Shown here piece by piece: positions 6,900 through 61,111 of a stretch of DNA of 64,000 nucleotides. The stretch is from Arthrobacter yangruifuii (GTDB taxonomy: Bacteria > Actinomycetota > Actinomycetes > Actinomycetales > Micrococcaceae). The number at the start of each line of letters is the position of its first letter. The first letter of the stretch is position 1. The DNA lies in contig NZ_VTFX01000001.1 of assembly GCF_009192775.1 (NCBI RefSeq), forward strand, positions 744,001 through 808,000. The letters are read 5' to 3'. The translations under genes and the position numbers were made by a program. The notes under the pieces are model-generated. The model was given only the letters and a program-made list of their open reading frames with translations. It searched no databases and was not told the DNA's origin.

Positions 6900-6998
6900 G
6901 TGGGTTCAGTAATCAAGAAGCGCCGCAAGCGTATGGCCAAGAAGAAGCACCGCAAGCTGCTTCGCAAGACCCGTCACCAGCGTCGCAATAAGAAGTAG
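6900..6998 (+). CDS. Small ribosomal subunit protein bS22 (AURKAIP1/COX24 domain)
   Basis: A 32-residue, extremely basic protein starting MGSVIKKRRKRM and ending QRRNKK. It matches the actinobacterial protein bS22, first seen in mycobacterial 30S structures and long missed by gene finders because of its size. More than half the residues are Lys or Arg, as expected for an rRNA-binding peptide. The start is GTG at 6900, preceded by GAGGA at short spacing. A strong terminator follows 70 bases downstream, so it is a single-gene transcript. It lies next to the BldC-like gene, but no functional link is evident. Confidence 0.93.
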   Translation: MGSVIKKRRKRMAKKKHRKLLRKTRHQRRNKK

Positions 6999-8022: not shown

Positions 8023-8274
8023 ATGAGCGAATCCACGGTCCCCCATGTAGTCCTCCTGACCAGACCGGGCTGCCACCTGTGCGAAGATGCCCGGCTCGTG
8101 CTTCAGCGCGTGGGGAAGGATCTTGGTGTGCAGTGGCAGGAGCGCAATGCCGATGAAGACCCGGAACTGGCCGCACGCTTCGGGGAAGAGATCCCGGTGC
8201 TGTTCATCGACGGAGTCCAGCGGGACTTCTGGAAAATCGACGAAGTACGGCTGCGGCGTCTGCTGGGGGCGTAA
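8023..8274 (+). CDS. Glutaredoxin-like thioredoxin-fold protein
   Basis: An 83-residue thioredoxin-fold protein with the redox pair CHLC at residues 17-20 (TRPGCHLCEDAR) and the cis-proline segment EIPVLFIDG near residues 64-72. This resembles the DUF836/glutaredoxin-2-like family, whose members usually lack a proven partner. The stop codon overlaps the start of rex (TAATG), so the two are co-translated. The pairing of a thiol protein with an NADH/NAD+ sensor is a recurrent actinobacterial arrangement and suggests a redox role. The electron donor is unknown. Confidence 0.85.
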   Translation: MSESTVPHVVLLTRPGCHLCEDARLVLQRVGKDLGVQWQERNADEDPELAARFGEEIPVLFIDGVQRDFWKIDEVRLRRLLGA

Positions 8275-9032
8275 TGGCATCCGAGGATGCCCGGTCGAGG
8301 CGCACGGCGCTGGAACGGGATACAGGGAACGGCAGCAAGTCCGCCGGAGCACCTCCGGCAGGTGCGGCTGCCCAGCGGCACATACCCCCGGCCTCGCTGG
8401 ACCGCCTGCCGGTGTACCTGCGGGTGCTGACTGCCATGCTGGGCGACGGGATTGAGCGCGTGTCCTCGGATGAGCTGGCCGAAGCCGCCGGGGTGAATTC
8501 TCCCAAGCTGCGCAAGGACCTGTCCTACCTCGGGTCATACGGGACCAGGGGCGTGGGATATGACGTCGCGTACCTCAGTGGACAGATTTCCGCTGCGCTG
8601 GGGCTCACGCTGACTTGGCGGGTGGCCATAGTCGGCGCGGGCAACCTGGGCCGGGCGCTGGCCGGCTACCCCGGTTTCGGATCCCGGGGCTTCGAAGTAG
8701 TGGCACTCCTGGATGCCGACCCGATGGTGATCGGCCAGGAGGTGGGCTGGCTGAGGATCAGTCCGGTGGACTCACTCGAGGCTGTTCTGGCGAAGACCCG
8801 GGCAAACATGGCGGTGCTCGCGGTGCCTGCCGAGGTGGCCCAGGATCTCTGCGACCGCCTCGTGGAATCGGGGATAACCAGTATCCTCAATTTCGCTCCC
8901 GTGGTGCTTCAGGCACCGGATGACGTCCAGATCCGCAAGGTGGACATGGCAACTGAACTGCAGATCCTGGCCTACCATGCACAGCGGTCCCAGGCCTTGC
9001 GGATAGCCGAGCGTGCCCGGCTGGCGCGCTAA
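8274..9032 (+). CDS. rex: Redox-sensing transcriptional repressor Rex
   Basis: Rex binds operators when NAD+ is high and lets go when NADH rises, derepressing respiratory and fermentative genes. The 252-residue chain has an N-terminal winged helix (about residues 45-95, LRKDLSYLGSYGTRGVGYDV) and a Rossmann domain beginning VAIVGAGNLGRAL near residue 117. A C-terminal swapped helix closes it (VDMATELQILAYHA). Residues 1-40 are a variable polar leader. In many actinobacteria hemA follows rex; here the next gene is on the opposite strand and the two stop codons overlap as CTAA. No consensus Rex operator was found in the promoters of this window. Confidence 0.94.
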   Translation: MASEDARSRRTALERDTGNGSKSAGAPPAGAAAQRHIPPASLDRLPVYLRVLTAMLGDGIERVSSDELAEAAGVNSPKLRKDLSYLGSYGTRGVGYDVAYLSGQISAALGLTLTWRVAIVGAGNLGRALAGYPGFGSRGFEVVALLDADPMVIGQEVGWLRISPVDSLEAVLAKTRANMAVLAVPAEVAQDLCDRLVESGITSILNFAPVVLQAPDDVQIRKVDMATELQILAYHAQRSQALRIAERARLAR

Positions 9033-10753
9033 GGCCGATCCATCCGGAGCAACTCCGCCTGGATCTGTTCCGCGGGGATCCGCTCTGTGTCCAGTGACTC
9101 GTCCGGGACCGGCTCGGGCTCCAGGGTCCGCCGCCGGAACCAGGGAGCTGCCCCCTTTGTGAACGTGAGGCCAGATCCGACAGCGGCAAGGCCAGCTGCC
9201 GCCGCCTGGACACCCAGCCCGGCATTGACCGCGAAGAAGAGCGCCGTGACCGCCAGCATCGCCGAGACAATCCGCGCCCAGCGGCGCTTGTCCCGGAGTG
9301 CCACCGCCATGAGGCACGCAATCCCGAAGATGACCAGGGCGTAGGCGATATCCACGGCGGCAAGGGTCCTGGTGTAGAGAGTGCCGGTGATCCCGAAGCG
9401 TTCGAAGAAGGTCAGCACAGGCGGCAGCGATTCGGGAACGGCCATGCGGGAAACGGTTGAGATGGTGTTCCCCAGATTGAGCAGGCCGGCTCCTGCAACA
9501 AGGGAACACGCGGCAGCGATGATGGGGGCGGGATTGCCGGTATGCGAGGGCAGCCGGGATTGCACCGCCCGGGCACCCGACGCGGTGATGCGAAGCCCAG
9601 CGCGGGTTGTCATGGCAACGATGTGCGCAATTTTGCGCACCGCGGCCCCCACGAAGTGCGCCGTGCTGCGGGCCGCTTTGGAGAGCGCACGCGAGACCGT
9701 GCGCGCCGCCGTGGACACCGCGCCTGCTACGGCGCGGGTGCCGACGGCGGTGGCATGCGTGGTGGCTACTGCCGAAACCGAAACGGCGTGGGCCGTGCTT
9801 CGGGCGCCCACGGCGGTGGCGTGCGTGGTGACTCGGGCCGAGGTCTTTGCCGCATGGGTTACGGCGCGGGCGGCTACGGTGGCGGCGTGTGCGACGGCGT
9901 GGGCCGTTACGGTGGCGGCGTGTGCGACGGCGCGGGCCGTGCTTCGGGCACCCACGGCGGTGGCGTGTGCGACGGCGCGGGCAGCAACGGAGACTGTGTG
10001 CGCGACAGCCAGGACAAAGACCGAAACAGCACGTGCCCCGGCCCTGATCCAGTTCCCGACCGTGCGGGACACGGCGTGTGCCCCGTTGCGTACCTGTGTG
10101 GCTCCGGTGCGGGCTGCGGTTGAGGTGGTGCGGGCTCCGGCCTGGACTCCGAGGGAGACGGCGTGTGCCCCGTTGCGTACTTGTGTGGCTCCGGTGCGGG
10201 CGGCGGTTGAGGTGGTGCGGGCTCCGGCCTGGACTCCTAGGGAGACGGCGTGTGCCCCGTTGCGTACTTGTGTGGCTCCGGTGCGGGCGGCGGTCGAGGT
10301 GGTGCGGGCTCCGGCTTGGACTCCCAGGGAGACGGCGTGTGCCCCGGACCGGGCATGTTGGGACGTGCGGTGTGCAAGAGCCTTTATCCAGGCGGCGGTT
10401 CCCAGCACCCCGGCACGGACCCAGCCGAAGGTGCCGCGTGCCCCGGCGCCGAGCCAGCCGAAGGCACCGCGCACTCCGGCACTCAGCCAGCCGATGGCAC
10501 CAAGCAACCCTGCCCTAAGCCAGAGGTAAGCGGCATGGCGGCCGTCGGATCCGGCACCGGATGGGGGTGCGAGGGGTCCGGCACCGGCCTCGGGCGCGCC
10601 GTCTCCTGCAATGCTCCCGGATATTGCCGGGGGATAGTCGGGCGGTTCCGGAATCACCATGCCGCCGGGCACGGCATGCCCCGAATAATGCTGCTGGTAA
10701 CGCAGCGGAAGATGTGGTTTTTGGTGTGGCGGGTTTGGAAGCAGTGCGGCCAT
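9029..10753 (-). CDS. Hendecad-repeat membrane protein with C-terminal four-helix domain
   Basis: I do not recognise a named family. The 574-residue product has three parts. Residues 1-73 are Pro/Gly-rich. Residues about 74-400 are an unbroken run of 11-residue units, with occasional 7- or 4-residue insertions that keep helical phase. Early units carry Trp (GAIGWLSAGVR, GAFGWLGAGAR); later ones read like AVAHAATVAAR, with His or Arg at unit positions 4 and 11. Plotted at 11 residues per three turns, positions 4, 7 and 11 form one polar basic stripe, so a long membrane-lying amphipathic helix is likely. Residues 409-532 contain about four transmembrane helices resembling the neighbouring gene's product. 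The start at 10753 follows AAGGGG; an in-frame GTG lies five codons upstream. Confidence 0.75.
   Translation of the reverse strand: MAALLPNPPHQKPHLPLRYQQHYSGHAVPGGMVIPEPPDYPPAISGSIAGDGAPEAGAGPLAPPSGAGSDGRHAAYLWLRAGLLGAIGWLSAGVRGAFGWLGAGARGTFGWVRAGVLGTAAWIKALAHRTSQHARSGAHAVSLGVQAGARTTSTAARTGATQVRNGAHAVSLGVQAGARTTSTAARTGATQVRNGAHAVSLGVQAGARTTSTAARTGATQVRNGAHAVSRTVGNWIRAGARAVSVFVLAVAHTVSVAARAVAHATAVGARSTARAVAHAATVTAHAVAHAATVAARAVTHAAKTSARVTTHATAVGARSTAHAVSVSAVATTHATAVGTRAVAGAVSTAARTVSRALSKAARSTAHFVGAAVRKIAHIVAMTTRAGLRITASGARAVQSRLPSHTGNPAPIIAAACSLVAGAGLLNLGNTISTVSRMAVPESLPPVLTFFERFGITGTLYTRTLAAVDIAYALVIFGIACLMAVALRDKRRWARIVSAMLAVTALFFAVNAGLGVQAAAAGLAAVGSGLTFTKGAAPWFRRRTLEPEPVPDESLDTERIPAEQIQAELLRMDRP
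10071..10331. repeat. Three near-identical 87-bp tandem repeats
   Basis: Units begin at 10071, 10158 and 10245 (ACGGCGTGTGCCCC at each). They differ at only a few positions. Each encodes 29 residues in the minus-strand protein, which divide as 11+7+11, so gain or loss of a unit would preserve both frame and helical register. Confidence 0.92.
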
Positions 10754-10930: not shown

Positions 10931-11638
10931 TCAGTACGGGTACAGCGGAGCCCTGCGGAAGTACGGGGCCGACGGCTTCAGGTACAGCATCACGATGCCC
11001 GCAATTCCCAACAGACTGGACACCAGTGAGATTAGGGTTACCGGGGAAGTGAAGTAGGAGCCGAGCATGGTGAAGATGCCAACCAGTGCGAAGGCCGCAA
11101 ACACGGTGCCAAGGATGCGTGCCCAGTTCTTTCCACGCCGGACGAAGAGGGCGATCAGGAGGTAGATTCCAAAGCCGATCAGGGCTATGACAATGCCGAA
11201 GGAAACGAGGAAGGTGGTCACGTTTCCGTCATCCAGCCCGGCATCGCTGAACGCCTGTTTTTCCTGGGGAGTCAGCACGGAGGGAAGGGCGAACGAGGTG
11301 ATGATGTTGTAGATAAAGCTCAAGACGCCTGCTGCGATGATCAACCAGGAACCGGTGATGACCTCGCGCGGTGGAGATGCTTTGGCAGGGACTGCCGGGG
11401 GCGCCGGATACCCGTAGCCGGAGGGCTGGCCGGCTCCCGGAGGCTGGTCGGAGGCCTGTCCATAGCCGTAGGGGCGTGGAGCGTATTGGCCGTACTGCGG
11501 CTCCGGCCTGGTATCCGGACCAACACCTCCGCCCGGAGCGCCGGCGCCGCCTGGTGCCGGGGGACCGCCGGGGTACGGGGGATTATTCGGGTAGTTGGGG
11601 TCGCGGCCCGGCTCGGGAGTGTTCTCTGGAGTGCTCAT
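10931..11638 (-). CDS. Proline-rich N terminus, DUF4064-like four-helix membrane protein
   Basis: A 235-residue protein with two parts. Residues 1-95 are a Pro/Gly/Tyr-rich, presumably disordered cytoplasmic segment with Tyr-Gly and Pro-Gly repeats. Residues 95-235 hold four hydrophobic helices: SWLIIAAGVLSFIYNII, FLVSFGIVIALIGFGIYL, RILGTVFAAFALVGIF and LVSSLLGIAGIVMLYL. The motif KNWARIL and the ending APYFRRAPL parallel RRWARIV and APWFRRR in the adjacent hendecad protein, so the two C-terminal domains look paralogous. The function is unknown. Genes of this layout are common in Micrococcaceae. It and the hendecad gene lie in the same direction, 177 bases apart. Confidence 0.7.
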   Translation of the reverse strand: MSTPENTPEPGRDPNYPNNPPYPGGPPAPGGAGAPGGGVGPDTRPEPQYGQYAPRPYGYGQASDQPPGAGQPSGYGYPAPPAVPAKASPPREVITGSWLIIAAGVLSFIYNIITSFALPSVLTPQEKQAFSDAGLDDGNVTTFLVSFGIVIALIGFGIYLLIALFVRRGKNWARILGTVFAAFALVGIFTMLGSYFTSPVTLISLVSSLLGIAGIVMLYLKPSAPYFRRAPLYPY

Positions 11639-11842: not shown

Positions 11843-12382
11843 CTAGGCCGCTACGAAGGCAGCATCAACGGAGATGGTGACCTTGTCGCCCACCAGGACG
11901 CCGCCGGTCTCCAGTGCAGCGTTCCACGTCAGCCCGAAGTCCTTGCGGCTGATCACGGTGCTGGCGGAGAAACCGGAGCGGGTGGCGCCGAACGGGTCCA
12001 CGGCCACGCCGTTGAACTCGGTGTCCATGACTACCGGGCGGGTGATGCCCTTGATGGTCAGGTCGCCCGTGACCGTGTACGTGGAGCCCGAGGCTTCAAT
12101 ACCGGTGGCCGTGAAGGTCAGCTCCGGGAACTGCTCGGCGTCGAAGAAATCCGGACCCTTGACGTGGGCGTCACGGTTGGCATCGTTGGAGTTGAAGGAA
12201 TCGGCGGCGATGACGACGGCGACGGCGGTTTCCTCCAGCGTCTCGCCGACAGTCAGCGTCGCTTCGACCTTGTCGAAGTTGCCGCGCACCTTGCTGATGC
12301 CGGCGTGACGGACGGTGAAGCCAACTTCGCTGTGTGAGGCATCGAAATTCCAGGTTCCGGTGGTGAGGCCGCTGGGGATCAT
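11843..12382 (-). CDS. YceI-family lipocalin-like protein
   Basis: A 179-residue member of the YceI family, a beta-barrel that binds isoprenoid or other amphiphilic lipids. The N terminus GTWNFDASHSEVGFTVRHAGISKVRGNF is typical, as are the later RDAHVKGPDFFDAE and GDLTIKGITRPV segments (the first shown in two overlapping parts of the family pattern). No signal peptide is present, so this version is cytoplasmic, unlike the periplasmic proteobacterial proteins. AAGGAG six bases before the ATG at 12382 fixes the start; an upstream extension in the same frame is not supported. It is a single-gene unit ending at a strong terminator. Confidence 0.9.
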   Translation of the reverse strand: MIPSGLTTGTWNFDASHSEVGFTVRHAGISKVRGNFDKVEATLTVGETLEETAVAVVIAADSFNSNDANRDAHVKGPDFFDAEQFPELTFTATGIEASGSTYTVTGDLTIKGITRPVVMDTEFNGVAVDPFGATRSGFSASTVISRKDFGLTWNAALETGGVLVGDKVTISVDAAFVAA

Positions 12383-12541
12383 GGAGAGCTCCTTCTGGTA
12401 ACTGTGCCGGCAGGAGGTCCCCTGCGGCATTTTCATGCATTTGCATTTAGTGTTGCACGGTTTGGTTAAAGGTTCAAGTGAAATTCACGGGGAATGCCCG
12501 AAAATTTAGCAGCTGGCTCCAACTCTGCGAAACTGGGACAC

Positions 12542-34114: not shown

Positions 34115-34649
34115 AGTGGGTTCCTTTGCAGGTTGTCCTTGCCTGCGACGAATGACGCAGGCCGCTTCGTCATCCGAACCACCCGCCGAACAATGGGGTT
34201 GGTGTGGGGCCAGTCGGAGCTTTTATGCCCGGCAAACCGGACGGAGGCCACATCTCGTGAAGCTGAAAACTACTCTAGCGGAGGCCACTGACATTTCGAC
34301 AGAGGTGTCCTTTTCCGTCTTCGGCGACGGCACCCAGACCTTGCCCAGCCACTGGGCACAGTCACCAGTTCAGCAGGTAGTTCAGCCTACGGGTCGTGGA
34401 AATACCTCGTGGCGGGGTCAACGGACGAGAGGAAATCGCGAATCGCGGCCACGTGCTGTTCAGGGACGGGTTCACAGTTGCCAGGGTGTTGTCGAGTAAT
34501 CCGTCCCGCCGCATCGTACCCCCCCCGTCAGGTGTCTGCGGCCTGCACGGCGGATTATCCGGTCAACTATGGTCCACATGGGGGGAGTCGCAGCCGATCG
34601 GCGCGCAGCTGAGACAGTGGGCCCGGGGCCGGAGGGAACAGCGGAAGAG
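34115..34649. other. Gene-poor interval
   Basis: No convincing intact gene on either strand. It contains a start-less minus-strand open segment (34387-34527) with gene-like composition, and a run of eight C near 34519-34526. This stretch separates the general chromosomal block from the sugar locus and may mark an old recombination junction. Confidence 0.6.
34387..34527 (-). pseudogene. Possible C-terminal gene remnant
   Basis: A 46-codon open segment bounded by TGA and TAG, with no usable start except an internal GTG. It reads EPVPEQHVAAIRDFLSSVDP and then ATRYFHDP before the stop, which looks like protein rather than chance sequence. The family is not recognised. It may be the leftover end of a deleted gene. 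Confidence 0.3.
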
Positions 34650-47321: not shown

Positions 47322-48347
47322 TCAGCGACGGCCGCGGCAACCTCCGGCCTGGAACTCACCGCCGGCATCGGCCAGGACGGCCGCGGTGTAACCGTCCCGG
47401 TAGCCGGTCTCCGTGGGGTGCAGGTTGAAGGGGTTGCCCTGCTCGAAAATGATCCAGGAATCAGGGGAGCCCACTCCGTGTCCGGCAAATTCATCCACCA
47501 CGTCCACAAACTCCCCGTTCTCGGGAACCTGTCCGGCAATGACGGCATTCAGGGCATCGGTTCCCTGGTTGAACAGGGCCACCGCCTCGGCGCTGAGCGG
47601 TCCCGCCGCGACGGTTTCAAACAGGTGCGGGTAACCGGTGACCACCAGGGTGGCCCGCGGGGCGGCCGCCGTGATCCGGGCGAACTCCGCCGCGAGTTGC
47701 GGCGCCAGGACGGTTTGGGCGTAGGCACTGGCCTGCTCGATGGCCGGTGCGCAGGTGGCCGGAAGCTGCGCACCAGCGCAGGCGGCCACCACGGTGACGA
47801 ACTGGACATCGTTGCCGCCGATCGTCACGGTCACGACGTCGGTCCGGGAGGTGAGCTTGCCCTGGGCCACGGCGCCGGTGATCTGCTCCGGCAGATCCAC
47901 CGGTGTGTCGGCCGGAGTGGTCAGTGCGGTGGCACCGGCGCAGGTGGCATCGGTGTCCAGATCCACCCGGTTCAGGGCGTCCAGCAGGGCAGGGTAACCC
48001 TGCGCCGTCCGGCCGCAGGCATCCAGCAGCGGCCCGCCGCCGAAGCCGGAGGCGTAGGAGTCTCCGAAGGCTACGTAGTCGACGTCGCGGCCGCTGCCGT
48101 GCCCCGCGCCGTGCCCCGCGCCGTGTCCTCCGCCGTGTCCGCTGCTGTGCCCCGCGCCGTGTCCGCCGCCGTGTCCCGTCCCTTGTCCGTTCCCGTGCCC
48201 TCCGCCGTGCCCGCCGCGGTGCTGTACGGAGTCTCCACCGGAGCTTCCGGCTACGGCAGGGGTGGTTCCGCCGGCCAGGAGAGCGGCTCCGGCAAGGACC
48301 ACAACGGCGGACTTCGCACGGAAGGACAGGTGTTGGGTGGGGCTCAT
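47322..48347 (-). CDS. Secreted SGNH/GDSL hydrolase with Gly-His repeat domain
   Basis: A 341-residue exported esterase or lipase. Residues 1-33 are a Sec signal peptide ending AVA. Residues 43-86 are a tetrapeptide repeat HGxG, with His every fourth residue and one Gln substitution. The SGNH domain follows: block I YVAFGDSYASGFGGG (Ser near 97), the Gly/Asn block TVTIGGNDVQF near 175, and HPTETGYRDGY near 322 with the Asp-His-like end. Six cysteines in the domain suggest disulfides, as in Streptomyces lipases. AAGGAG seven bases before ATG 48347 sets the start. The repeat may bind metal. Confidence 0.9.
   Translation of the reverse strand: MSPTQHLSFRAKSAVVVLAGAALLAGGTTPAVAGSSGGDSVQHRGGHGGGHGNGQGTGHGGGHGAGHSSGHGGGHGAGHGAGHGSGRDVDYVAFGDSYASGFGGGPLLDACGRTAQGYPALLDALNRVDLDTDATCAGATALTTPADTPVDLPEQITGAVAQGKLTSRTDVVTVTIGGNDVQFVTVVAACAGAQLPATCAPAIEQASAYAQTVLAPQLAAEFARITAAAPRATLVVTGYPHLFETVAAGPLSAEAVALFNQGTDALNAVIAGQVPENGEFVDVVDEFAGHGVGSPDSWIIFEQGNPFNLHPTETGYRDGYTAAVLADAGGEFQAGGCRGRR
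48090..48221. repeat. 12-bp-period repeat encoding HGxG units
   Basis: About eleven units of a 12-base repeat (minus strand, glycine-histidine codons) inside the SGNH hydrolase gene. The units are imperfect. Such DNA can change unit number by slippage without breaking the frame. Confidence 0.85.
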
Positions 48348-48548
48348 CTTTGCGCTCCTTAGGGCAGCGGACACAACAACATCAAGGCCGACAGTCTGAC
48401 GCAGCATCAGTGCGGCGGCAATCGTGACGCTCTTTATCCGCTGTCCCGGTGCCCGGATCACCGCCGGACGCCGCGGCACGGCGTTCCCCGCCGCCGACGG
48501 TCAGGCAGCGGGGTGTGACCGCGGACACTCTGCGCTACGCTGGCGATA

Positions 48549-60290: not shown

Positions 60291-61061
60291 CTAGTCTCCA
60301 AGCAGCAGCCAGGCACAGAATGCTCCGGCAGCGAGGAAGAGCGCCCAATTCACGGCCACCACCAGCAGGGTGGAAGCGAAGGGCCGTGCCGCCGCCTCGC
60401 GGCGGGGGAGGATCACCGGCTCGGGGATGGGGCCCTTGCGGAACTGGCCCCACAGGCTGGTGGCCAGCAGGACCACTCCTCCGCCCAGTGCCAGGGGCAG
60501 CGCGGGCACTGAGACCAGGACCAGCTGGGGGGCGAACAGCAGTAGTCCCGTTTCCGCCAGCAGGCAGATGGCCAGCAGGAAGGCCGGCCGCCGCAGGGAT
60601 GCCCAGGTGGGATGTACTGCGTAGAGCGGGCTGACGCCGGCCGCCACCAGTGCGGTGAGGGCCAGGAGCAGCCCGGGGACGGTGACGTTAACCGTGGCAG
60701 CGTCAGCAGTCACGGCGGCGGCCACGGCGAAGAACCCCAGCAGACCCAGCAGCGTGGGGACAACAACGGCAGCCATCGGCGGCCTTCCTGCCGGGCCGGC
60801 CTCGGCATGTCCTGCCTTTGCCTGTCCCGCCTCGGCATGTCCCGCCTTTGCCGGGCGGACCTCTGCCTGTACCGCCTCTGCCTGGCCATCCGGGGACAGC
60901 CACCCCGTTCCGTCCGGCGTCGGGGGACCGCTGCTGCCGGAAGCGCCGCCGGCTGCACCGGACGCAGTGCTGGCGGCACCGGAAGCAGTGCCGGATGCCG
61001 TCCCGGAAGCCATGCCGGAGGAGGAAGACCGGCTGTCGGCGTCGGGTTCGGGGATTCCCAT
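60291..61061 (-). CDS. Membrane protein with low-complexity repeat N terminus
   Basis: A 256-residue protein of unknown function. Residues 1-85 are low complexity: SGTASG-type repeats (about 15-45), then a ten-residue repeat of the pattern KAGHAEAGQA (about 65-85). Residues 90-256 hold about six hydrophobic helices, such as TLLGLLGFFAVAAAVTADAA, LLLALTALVAAGVSPLY and LLVVAVNWALFLAAGAFC (the last near the C terminus). The membrane part is probably a real domain; the N terminus is variable. AAAGGA before ATG 61061 supports the start; an ATG two codons upstream is possible. It is divergent from paaA. Confidence 0.7.
   Translation of the reverse strand: MGIPEPDADSRSSSSGMASGTASGTASGAASTASGAAGGASGSSGPPTPDGTGWLSPDGQAEAVQAEVRPAKAGHAEAGQAKAGHAEAGPAGRPPMAAVVVPTLLGLLGFFAVAAAVTADAATVNVTVPGLLLALTALVAAGVSPLYAVHPTWASLRRPAFLLAICLLAETGLLLFAPQLVLVSVPALPLALGGGVVLLATSLWGQFRKGPIPEPVILPRREAAARPFASTLLVVAVNWALFLAAGAFCAWLLLGD
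60801..60860. repeat. 30-bp tandem repeat, two copies
   Basis: CTCGGCATGTCC starts at 60801 and 60831, giving a 30-bp unit in two near-identical copies. Partial copies follow downstream. It lies inside the membrane-protein gene and encodes ten residues per unit. Confidence 0.8.
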
Positions 61062-61111
61062 GACCATCCTTTCGCACGGTTTCTTCTCCCCACCAGTGTT
61101 CCACAGCGGCC

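Follow-up and report, generated by a model that had tools for sequence, protein, structure and literature searches.

Within a 64,000-nucleotide stretch of the Arthrobacter yangruifuii genome (contig NZ_VTFX01000001.1, positions 744,001 to 808,000; hereafter the window, with coordinates counted from its first letter), a minus-strand gene (9029-10753 with its stop codon; coding part 9032-10753, ATG start at 10753) encodes a protein of 574 residues. Its open reading frame (ORF) and orthologues divide the protein into an N-terminal tail, an array of 11-residue units and a four-helix membrane domain. Sequence comparison indicates that the array is under selection for helix, for phase and for one face, with exclusion of Pro and acidic residues, and that it was inserted and amplified within one Arthrobacter clade. 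The array is a known kind of helix in an unusual variant. As a tentative explanation, we suggest that it forms an Ala-rich cytoplasmic hendecad helix that would pack with a second helix and be anchored by the four-helix domain.

The array spans residues 76-397 (322 residues; 9563-10528, minus strand), as delimited by register parse and composition, and holds no Pro, Asp or Glu. The original prediction had placed 11-residue units on the minus strand at about residues 74 to 400, with interruptions of 7 or 4 residues that preserve helical phase, and both statements were borne out. Residue identity at a lag of 11 was 0.38, compared with a maximum of 0.21 over lags 1-40 in 500 shuffles. A register parse that charged all kinds of jump equally found five breaks in the window array, formed by three 7-residue and two 4-residue units. 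In the arrays of 12 genomes (4051 residues in all, 244-395 in each) there are 32 breaks, 29 of 7 residues, three of 4 and none of any other size; by this parse all 32 are phase-preserving. Differences in array length between close species are 11, 22 and 44 residues. In the two deepest-branching arrays (L040 and L041), whose units differ in sequence, identity is highest at a lag of 40 residues (33+7).

The repeats had been described as unbroken. They are periodic throughout but less uniform than that description implies, with three zones. The first (zone I; residues 76-124, 10382-10528) is a Trp/Leu/Gly zone; across the arrays its units always have Trp at position 9, together with Gly at 2 and 5, Tyr or Phe at 7 and Leu at 10. 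A Trp had been assigned to each of the first five units; in the window array it is present in four full units and in a leading part-unit. There follow 3.2 tandem copies of an 87-bp unit (29 residues, 11+11+7; 96% matches; 10066-10346), near-perfect copies that are recent phase-preserving growth. The later zone, up to the membrane domain, is built of TTAHATAVGAR-type units of Ala, Thr, His and Arg (9563-10042).

The chemistry of the helical wheel is one-sided. The 12 arrays together contain no Pro, no Cys, 14 Asp or Glu, 11 Lys, 372 Arg and 247 His, with 25-37 Arg plus Lys, 15-28 His and 0-4 Asp or Glu in each. Apart from zone I, Ala occupies position 3 in 89% of cases (Val 5%, Leu 1%) and position 5 in 73%, position 4 is His (69%) or Arg (21%) and position 11 is Arg (53%) or Gln (31%); positions 6, 7 and 10 are Thr/Val, Ser/Ala and Ala/Val, respectively, and Thr is common at positions 1, 2 and 6. 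Positions 3, 6, 7 and 10, which correspond to a, d, e and h of a hendecad, are thus occupied by small or hydrophobic residues. The basic stripe originally drawn through positions 4, 7 and 11 as His/Thr/Arg is real, but in the register used for the window array it consists of His/Arg at position 4 and Arg/Gln at position 11, position 7 being Ser/Ala. The periodicity of Arg, Lys, His and Gln in this array peaks at 98.3 degrees per residue with a power of 0.122, whereas none of 200 shuffles exceeded 0.049; the best period in the helical band lies at 98.3-98.9 degrees in 12 of 12 arrays, and in 10 of them it is also the global maximum. Outside zone I the hydrophobic moment is weak (0.10-0.20) but exceeds all 2000 shuffles in every array except L032, and points to 100-148 degrees in every array except L041 (180 degrees). 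Within zone I it reaches 0.24-0.38 and, because the zone is short, exceeds all of its own shuffles in only two of the 12 arrays.

Several observations point to selection on the protein. Among the possible non-silent single-base steps from the actual array codons, 9.1% lead to Pro and 8.9% to Asp or Glu. The ratio of non-silent to silent substitution rates (dN/dS) of the array, a rough figure, was 0.19-0.50 in nine of the 66 possible pairs. The dependence of change on helical face was measured outside zone I in three independent close pairs, five partly overlapping pairs and three remote pairs, again of 66; phase agreed at all 1470 of the 1470 sites in the per-position rate table. In the three close pairs amino-acid change depended on face (p = 0.002, no face preset), the slowest lying at about 187 degrees, and the five overlapping pairs gave a similar picture (p = 0.001, about 204 degrees). 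Silent change was not face-dependent in either set (p = 0.09 and 0.33, respectively). The slowest face carries Ala, Ser and Arg, and the slow positions include 3, 7, 10 and 11. At these four positions, chosen after the per-position rate table had been viewed, the close pairs had non-silent changes at 7/307 sites versus 36/537 elsewhere (silent changes, 26/307 versus 29/537), and the overlapping pairs at 41/535 versus 134/935. Exchanges between Thr and Ala, Val or Ile are frequent. A repeat maintained at the DNA level without meaning for the protein is opposed by the dN/dS values, the exclusion of Pro and acidic residues and the face-dependent constraint. Coding by the overlapping plus-strand ORF (9381-10529) was also rejected: it is the minus-strand frame that has orthologues, shows a dN/dS below 1 and encodes the conserved membrane domain.

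The array can be placed on a tree of relatives that lack it. The original prediction had called for a search for homologues in other Arthrobacter, and these were found: among 59 genomes, 29 of the genus and 30 from the family and order, protein matches were obtained in 28, all within the genus, and in genus genome G005 a relative was detected by the domain profile only. The array is present in 12 of the 29 genus genomes, while 17 have the gene without it. The N-terminal tail of the window protein (residues 1-75; 10529-10753, minus strand) consists of a conserved start motif, MAALLPNP..K, and a Pro-rich linker with an IPEPPxYPP motif; array-less members begin with a start motif that is MSSLPASPNPQK-like or more distant, continue with a Pro-rich linker and end in the same membrane domain. 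In a midpoint-rooted four-gene tree of 26 taxa (L100, L101 and L102 were left out, one gene being missing from the fetched stretch), the 12 array carriers group together, with a support of 0.998 for the branch to the rest. A 33-residue array profile matched in the same number of genus genomes, 12 of 29, and every match listed falls in this gene; in a class sample of 296 genomes it found only its own genome at an E value of 1e-6 or better. Membrane-domain relatives occur in 149 of 245 family genomes. Because all 12 arrays sit at a single syntenic place, form one tree group and confine the profile to their 12 genomes, the array is most likely a one-time, clade-specific addition that was later amplified. 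A short basic stretch in array-less tails, picked out by eye as a possible seed of the array, was rejected; the repeat profile misses those genomes at an E value of 0.001.

The alignments behind these comparisons were filtered. L044, whose called ORF has no start motif, was left out of alignments A2 and A3, and L049 out of A3; near-duplicate orthologues were dropped (L034, L036 and L038 from A3, several from A2). Alignment A6 excludes matches with E values above 1e-8, shorter than 121 residues or identical, and keeps 12 + 55 rows. One array-less relative, at L046:5231-6646, has a linker of about 308 residues with a net charge of -23. Within it, a tract examined over 220 residues is rich in Pro (19%), Ala (18%), Thr (17%) and Glu (17%), a chemistry opposite to that of the array.

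Structure prediction, in all cases of monomers, was made with AlphaFold2. The model of the whole protein (12 alignment rows) was helical along the array except for breaks of 7 and 9 residues, with a mean predicted local distance difference test score (pLDDT) of 40.7. For residues 298-545 (67 rows; mean pLDDT 73.4) it returned the four-helix domain preceded by one helix at residues 299-400, which holds the last 99 residues of the array and scores 79-86 in its first 40. The continuous helix for which the original prediction had proposed an AlphaFold check was therefore obtained with moderate confidence for residues 299-400, while the full-length model is of low confidence and twice broken. The C-terminal four-helix membrane domain of that prediction was recovered by both loop analysis and AlphaFold2 (residues 405-545; 9119-9541, minus strand), and a short tail follows it at the C-terminal end of the protein. 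In four proteins the loop that joins membrane helices 2 and 3 (RDKRRWAR-like; RDKRRWAR in the window protein) is basic, as is the domain's C-terminal end, whereas the long first loop is close to neutral. On these charges, and by the positive-inside rule, this loop, both ends of the domain and the array are likely to be cytoplasmic.

We propose that a tandem gene pair encodes small four-helix membrane proteins of Micrococcaceae and that this gene is its second copy. The ancestor of a single Arthrobacter clade would have gained the 11-residue units, placed after the N-terminal tail and ahead of the first membrane helix, and in-frame duplications of 11, 22, 29, 40 or 44 residues would later have amplified them. 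The product would be an Ala-rich hendecad helix, 37-59 nm long if straight, in the cytoplasm. It could pack through its Ala/Ser/Val stripe (a, d, e and h) against a second such helix, giving a rod that runs along the inner membrane or off it. The Arg/His stripe beside this core would face a polyanion, most likely anionic phospholipid of the inner leaflet, and the Trp-rich first units, as a more amphipathic end, may sit in the membrane interface. The cytoplasmic side, the helix-helix packing, the lipid partner and any cellular role are what we infer from these sequence features. According to a study of hendecads (PMC9858780), these carry hydrophobic residues at a, d and h and, unless they form higher oligomers, need a core residue that is small, Ala in particular; the Ala-rich position 3 fits this.

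A number of points weigh against this explanation. Many of the register breaks represent one inherited heptad, GAxxRVR-like, that was duplicated together with its neighbours; about six to nine kinds of break can be counted by eye, so the independent evidence from the breaks is smaller than their number, 32, suggests. L037 and L041 have their strongest period of Arg, Lys, His and Gln outside the helical band, and the helical peak of L041 is hardly above the shuffles (0.039 versus 0.038). In the three closest pairs the dS of the array exceeded the C-terminal value by factors of 2.0, 2.8 and 1.5; non-orthologous units were therefore partly compared, which is why the dN/dS figures are rough. Core position 6 (d) is not slow, and position 11, which is slow, lies outside the core. 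The face effect in the remote pairs points elsewhere (slowest at about 136 degrees, fastest at 316; p = 0.0008) and the contrast of positions 3, 7, 10 and 11 with the rest is weak (74/218 versus 138/375); silent change is also uneven in these pairs (p = 0.014), from which 72 sites had been removed for phase mismatch, and their alignments are therefore doubtful. The AlphaFold2 models add the low confidence of the full-length prediction and its two breaks, and pLDDT falls to 50-61 at residues 348-397 in the model of residues 298-545. Finally, each chain has some 25-37 Arg and Lys against 0-4 acidic residues, a charge that would work against self-association if nothing neutralised it. The rods of Scy and FilP are rich in both charges.

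In the closest competing reading, the array forms a giant 3-11 amphipathic helix spread flat over the inner leaflet, in the manner of alpha-synuclein or Plin4, making many weak contacts through Ala, Val and Thr and through its Arg/His stripe, with the membrane domain serving only as an anchor; this is the original model minus lipid droplets, and we regard it as a serious possibility, though less likely than not. The 3-11 periodicity runs throughout the array, the moment is weak but real, basic residues favour anionic bilayers, a Trp zone stands at one end and the likely side is the cytoplasmic one. Moreover, moments over 33 residues are 0.12-0.21 outside zone I and 0.26-0.43 within it, and a Plin4 study (PMC5889406) gives 0.257 for that protein, describes it as likewise nearly without aromatic residues, rich in Thr, Gly and Val and with one-sided charge, and reports that residues of both charge signs contribute to its targeting. 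A polar face with both charge signs was not found here, the arrays having 14 Asp or Glu among 4051 residues. The constrained face (about 187-204 degrees) is about 40-100 degrees off the direction of the moment in 11 of 12 arrays, and a lipid face would not demand that position 3 be kept as Ala rather than Val or Leu. This offset speaks for a packing core over a membrane surface: the slow face fits a hendecad core better than it fits the most hydrophobic face, and on this sequence evidence the anchored hendecad rod is slightly favoured over the flat surface helix. The stronger proposition, that the array is a giant all-basic 3-11 helix, evolved on an identifiable branch within an existing membrane protein as a functional counterpart of synuclein or Plin4 that coats or stiffens the inner membrane by many weak contacts from its membrane-domain anchor, would be unlikely in our estimate.

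An almost acid-free helix with 25-37 Arg plus Lys and 15-28 His, probably on the cytoplasmic side, might alternatively be a membrane-tethered binder of nucleic acid or polyphosphate, its Arg/His stripe holding DNA near the membrane. We think this improbable: Lys is nearly absent (11 of 4051 residues), charge density is low at about one Arg per 11 residues, position 11 alone of the basic stripe changes slowly, and no DNA-binding family came up in the Pfam and NCBIfam scans. The chances are equally slim that the array is a passive spacer or a slowly growing expansion of which length alone, or nothing, matters. Its variable length, its growth by tandem duplication and the expansion of the L046 linker into a tract of opposite chemistry would agree with filler; the dN/dS well below 1, the exclusion of Pro and acidic residues and the face-dependent constraint would not be expected of it.

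The likeness to perilipin 11-mers had brought in lipid droplets, and a coat of lipid droplets or polyhydroxyalkanoate granules is a further reading. This we consider very improbable, because neither WS/DGAT (PF03007) nor PhaC (PF07167) was found in any of the 29 genus genomes (other synthases were not searched). The same WS/DGAT search matched 81 of 118 genomes of a class sample, which serves as its control since no control genome matched in the genus search; in the PhaC genus search one control genome matched. The four-helix membrane anchor is a further point against a coat. Type I antifreeze proteins have an 11-residue spacing of Thr, and Thr is common at three positions of this Ala-rich helix, but an ice-binding role is barely credible for an array that is basic, probably cytoplasmic and often swaps Thr for Ala, Val or Ile.

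Among known systems, the best structural likeness is to the families of hendecad coiled coils (Scy, FilP and others), which reportedly were surveyed by Martinez-Goikoetxea and Lupas in 2023 (cited in PMC11676326). They share with the array 11-residue units (3+4+4), interspersed heptads and an Ala-rich core; in contrast to them, the array is almost free of acidic residues, has hardly any Lys and is attached to a four-helix membrane domain, and its oligomer is a proposed one. The NCBIfam Scy model matched one of 13 members, at an E value of only 0.086. Plin4 would be the best functional analogue. With the 11-mers of perilipin, alpha-synuclein and apolipoproteins the array has in common a 3-11 helix, a weak moment, a richness in Thr, Val, Gly and Ala and one-sided charge; it differs in having a polar face almost without acidic residues, Arg and His in place of Lys, a membrane anchor and a bacterial origin. 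The original appeal to the logic of these proteins thus holds fairly well for Plin4, but matches to the apolipoprotein-type families were not significant: at E values up to 1, Apolipoprotein (PF01442) and ApoLp-III (PF07464) each matched three of 12 members, with best E values of 0.074 and 0.058, which counts against a surface helix. Group 3 LEA proteins (LEA_4), including bacterial DosH, also have 11-residue helical units rich in Ala and Thr. LEA_4 units carry Lys and Glu as well, and LEA_4 was not among the four Pfam families matched in 12 members at E values up to 1. The DUF7144-like four-helix proteins of Micrococcaceae have the same C-terminal domain, gene place and Pro-rich paralogue tails, without the array. 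DUF7144 (PF23636) matched 17 of 67 members (best E value 4.7e-6) but not the window protein, and the tandem paralogue scored 18.4 bits, below the Pfam gathering cut-off of 27.

No family in the libraries searched covers the array; the original prediction had noted that a named family of this architecture would lower its novelty. The window protein matched nothing in Pfam, NCBIfam or PHROGs at E values up to 1, and a PDB sequence profile gave a single match, to a designed protein (E value 0.27). With the AlphaFold2 model of residues 298-545, Foldseek found no match with an E value of 0.001 or below, and all that VIA-align gave was a common four-helix arrangement. A scan of genome contigs with the protein alone yielded 80 stretches that fitted a pattern, none of them a relative, and a plasmid search yielded nothing. 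No paper joining hendecad and Arthrobacter was found in the literature, and among the listed matches of a wider search, judged by title, none was on this subject.

The gene lies in a conserved neighbourhood. The tandem paralogue (10931-11638, minus strand) has a Pro/Gly/Tyr-rich tail and a related four-helix domain without an array; in several Micrococcaceae relatives, tails of this kind hold PQYGQ-type repeats. A convergent gene that we take to encode a Rex-like redox repressor (8274-9032, plus strand) and an upstream gene in the same orientation, presumably YceI-like (11843-12436, minus strand), adjoin in 28 other loci examined. In these 28 loci, all from other genomes, the neighbours are conserved as far as each fetched stretch reaches, with what we assume to be HAD, glutaredoxin-like and Rex-like genes on one flank and, beyond the tandem paralogue, supposed YceI-like, phosphatase and cytochrome-biogenesis genes on the other. 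Scans for promoters (0 sites) and terminators (3 sites) were at shuffle level. Elsewhere in the window, a SAM-IV riboswitch aptamer (34130-34262, minus strand) was the sole Rfam match at gathering score. An extremely basic ORF of 32 residues (6900-6998, plus strand) resembles bS22, a small ribosomal protein of actinobacteria. Near the N-terminus of a presumably SGNH-hydrolase-like product (47322-48479, minus strand) there is a Gly/His-rich repeat tract (GHGGGHGAGH), and a protein with hydrophobic stretches (60291-61067, minus strand) has an N-terminal tail with short AEAGQAKAGH-type repeats.

Duplication of units is the presumed route by which long 11-residue helices grow. In this gene family the array-less sisters, the branch of insertion, many array lengths and the direction of selection can be read together, a combination that in our judgement should be rare. 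Binding to the inner membrane, if it does occur, would make the array a bacterial analogue of the 11-mer surface helices, with an anchor in the membrane. If it instead forms a rod, it would be an unusual hendecad with hardly any acidic residues, in which the charge problem calls for a partner.

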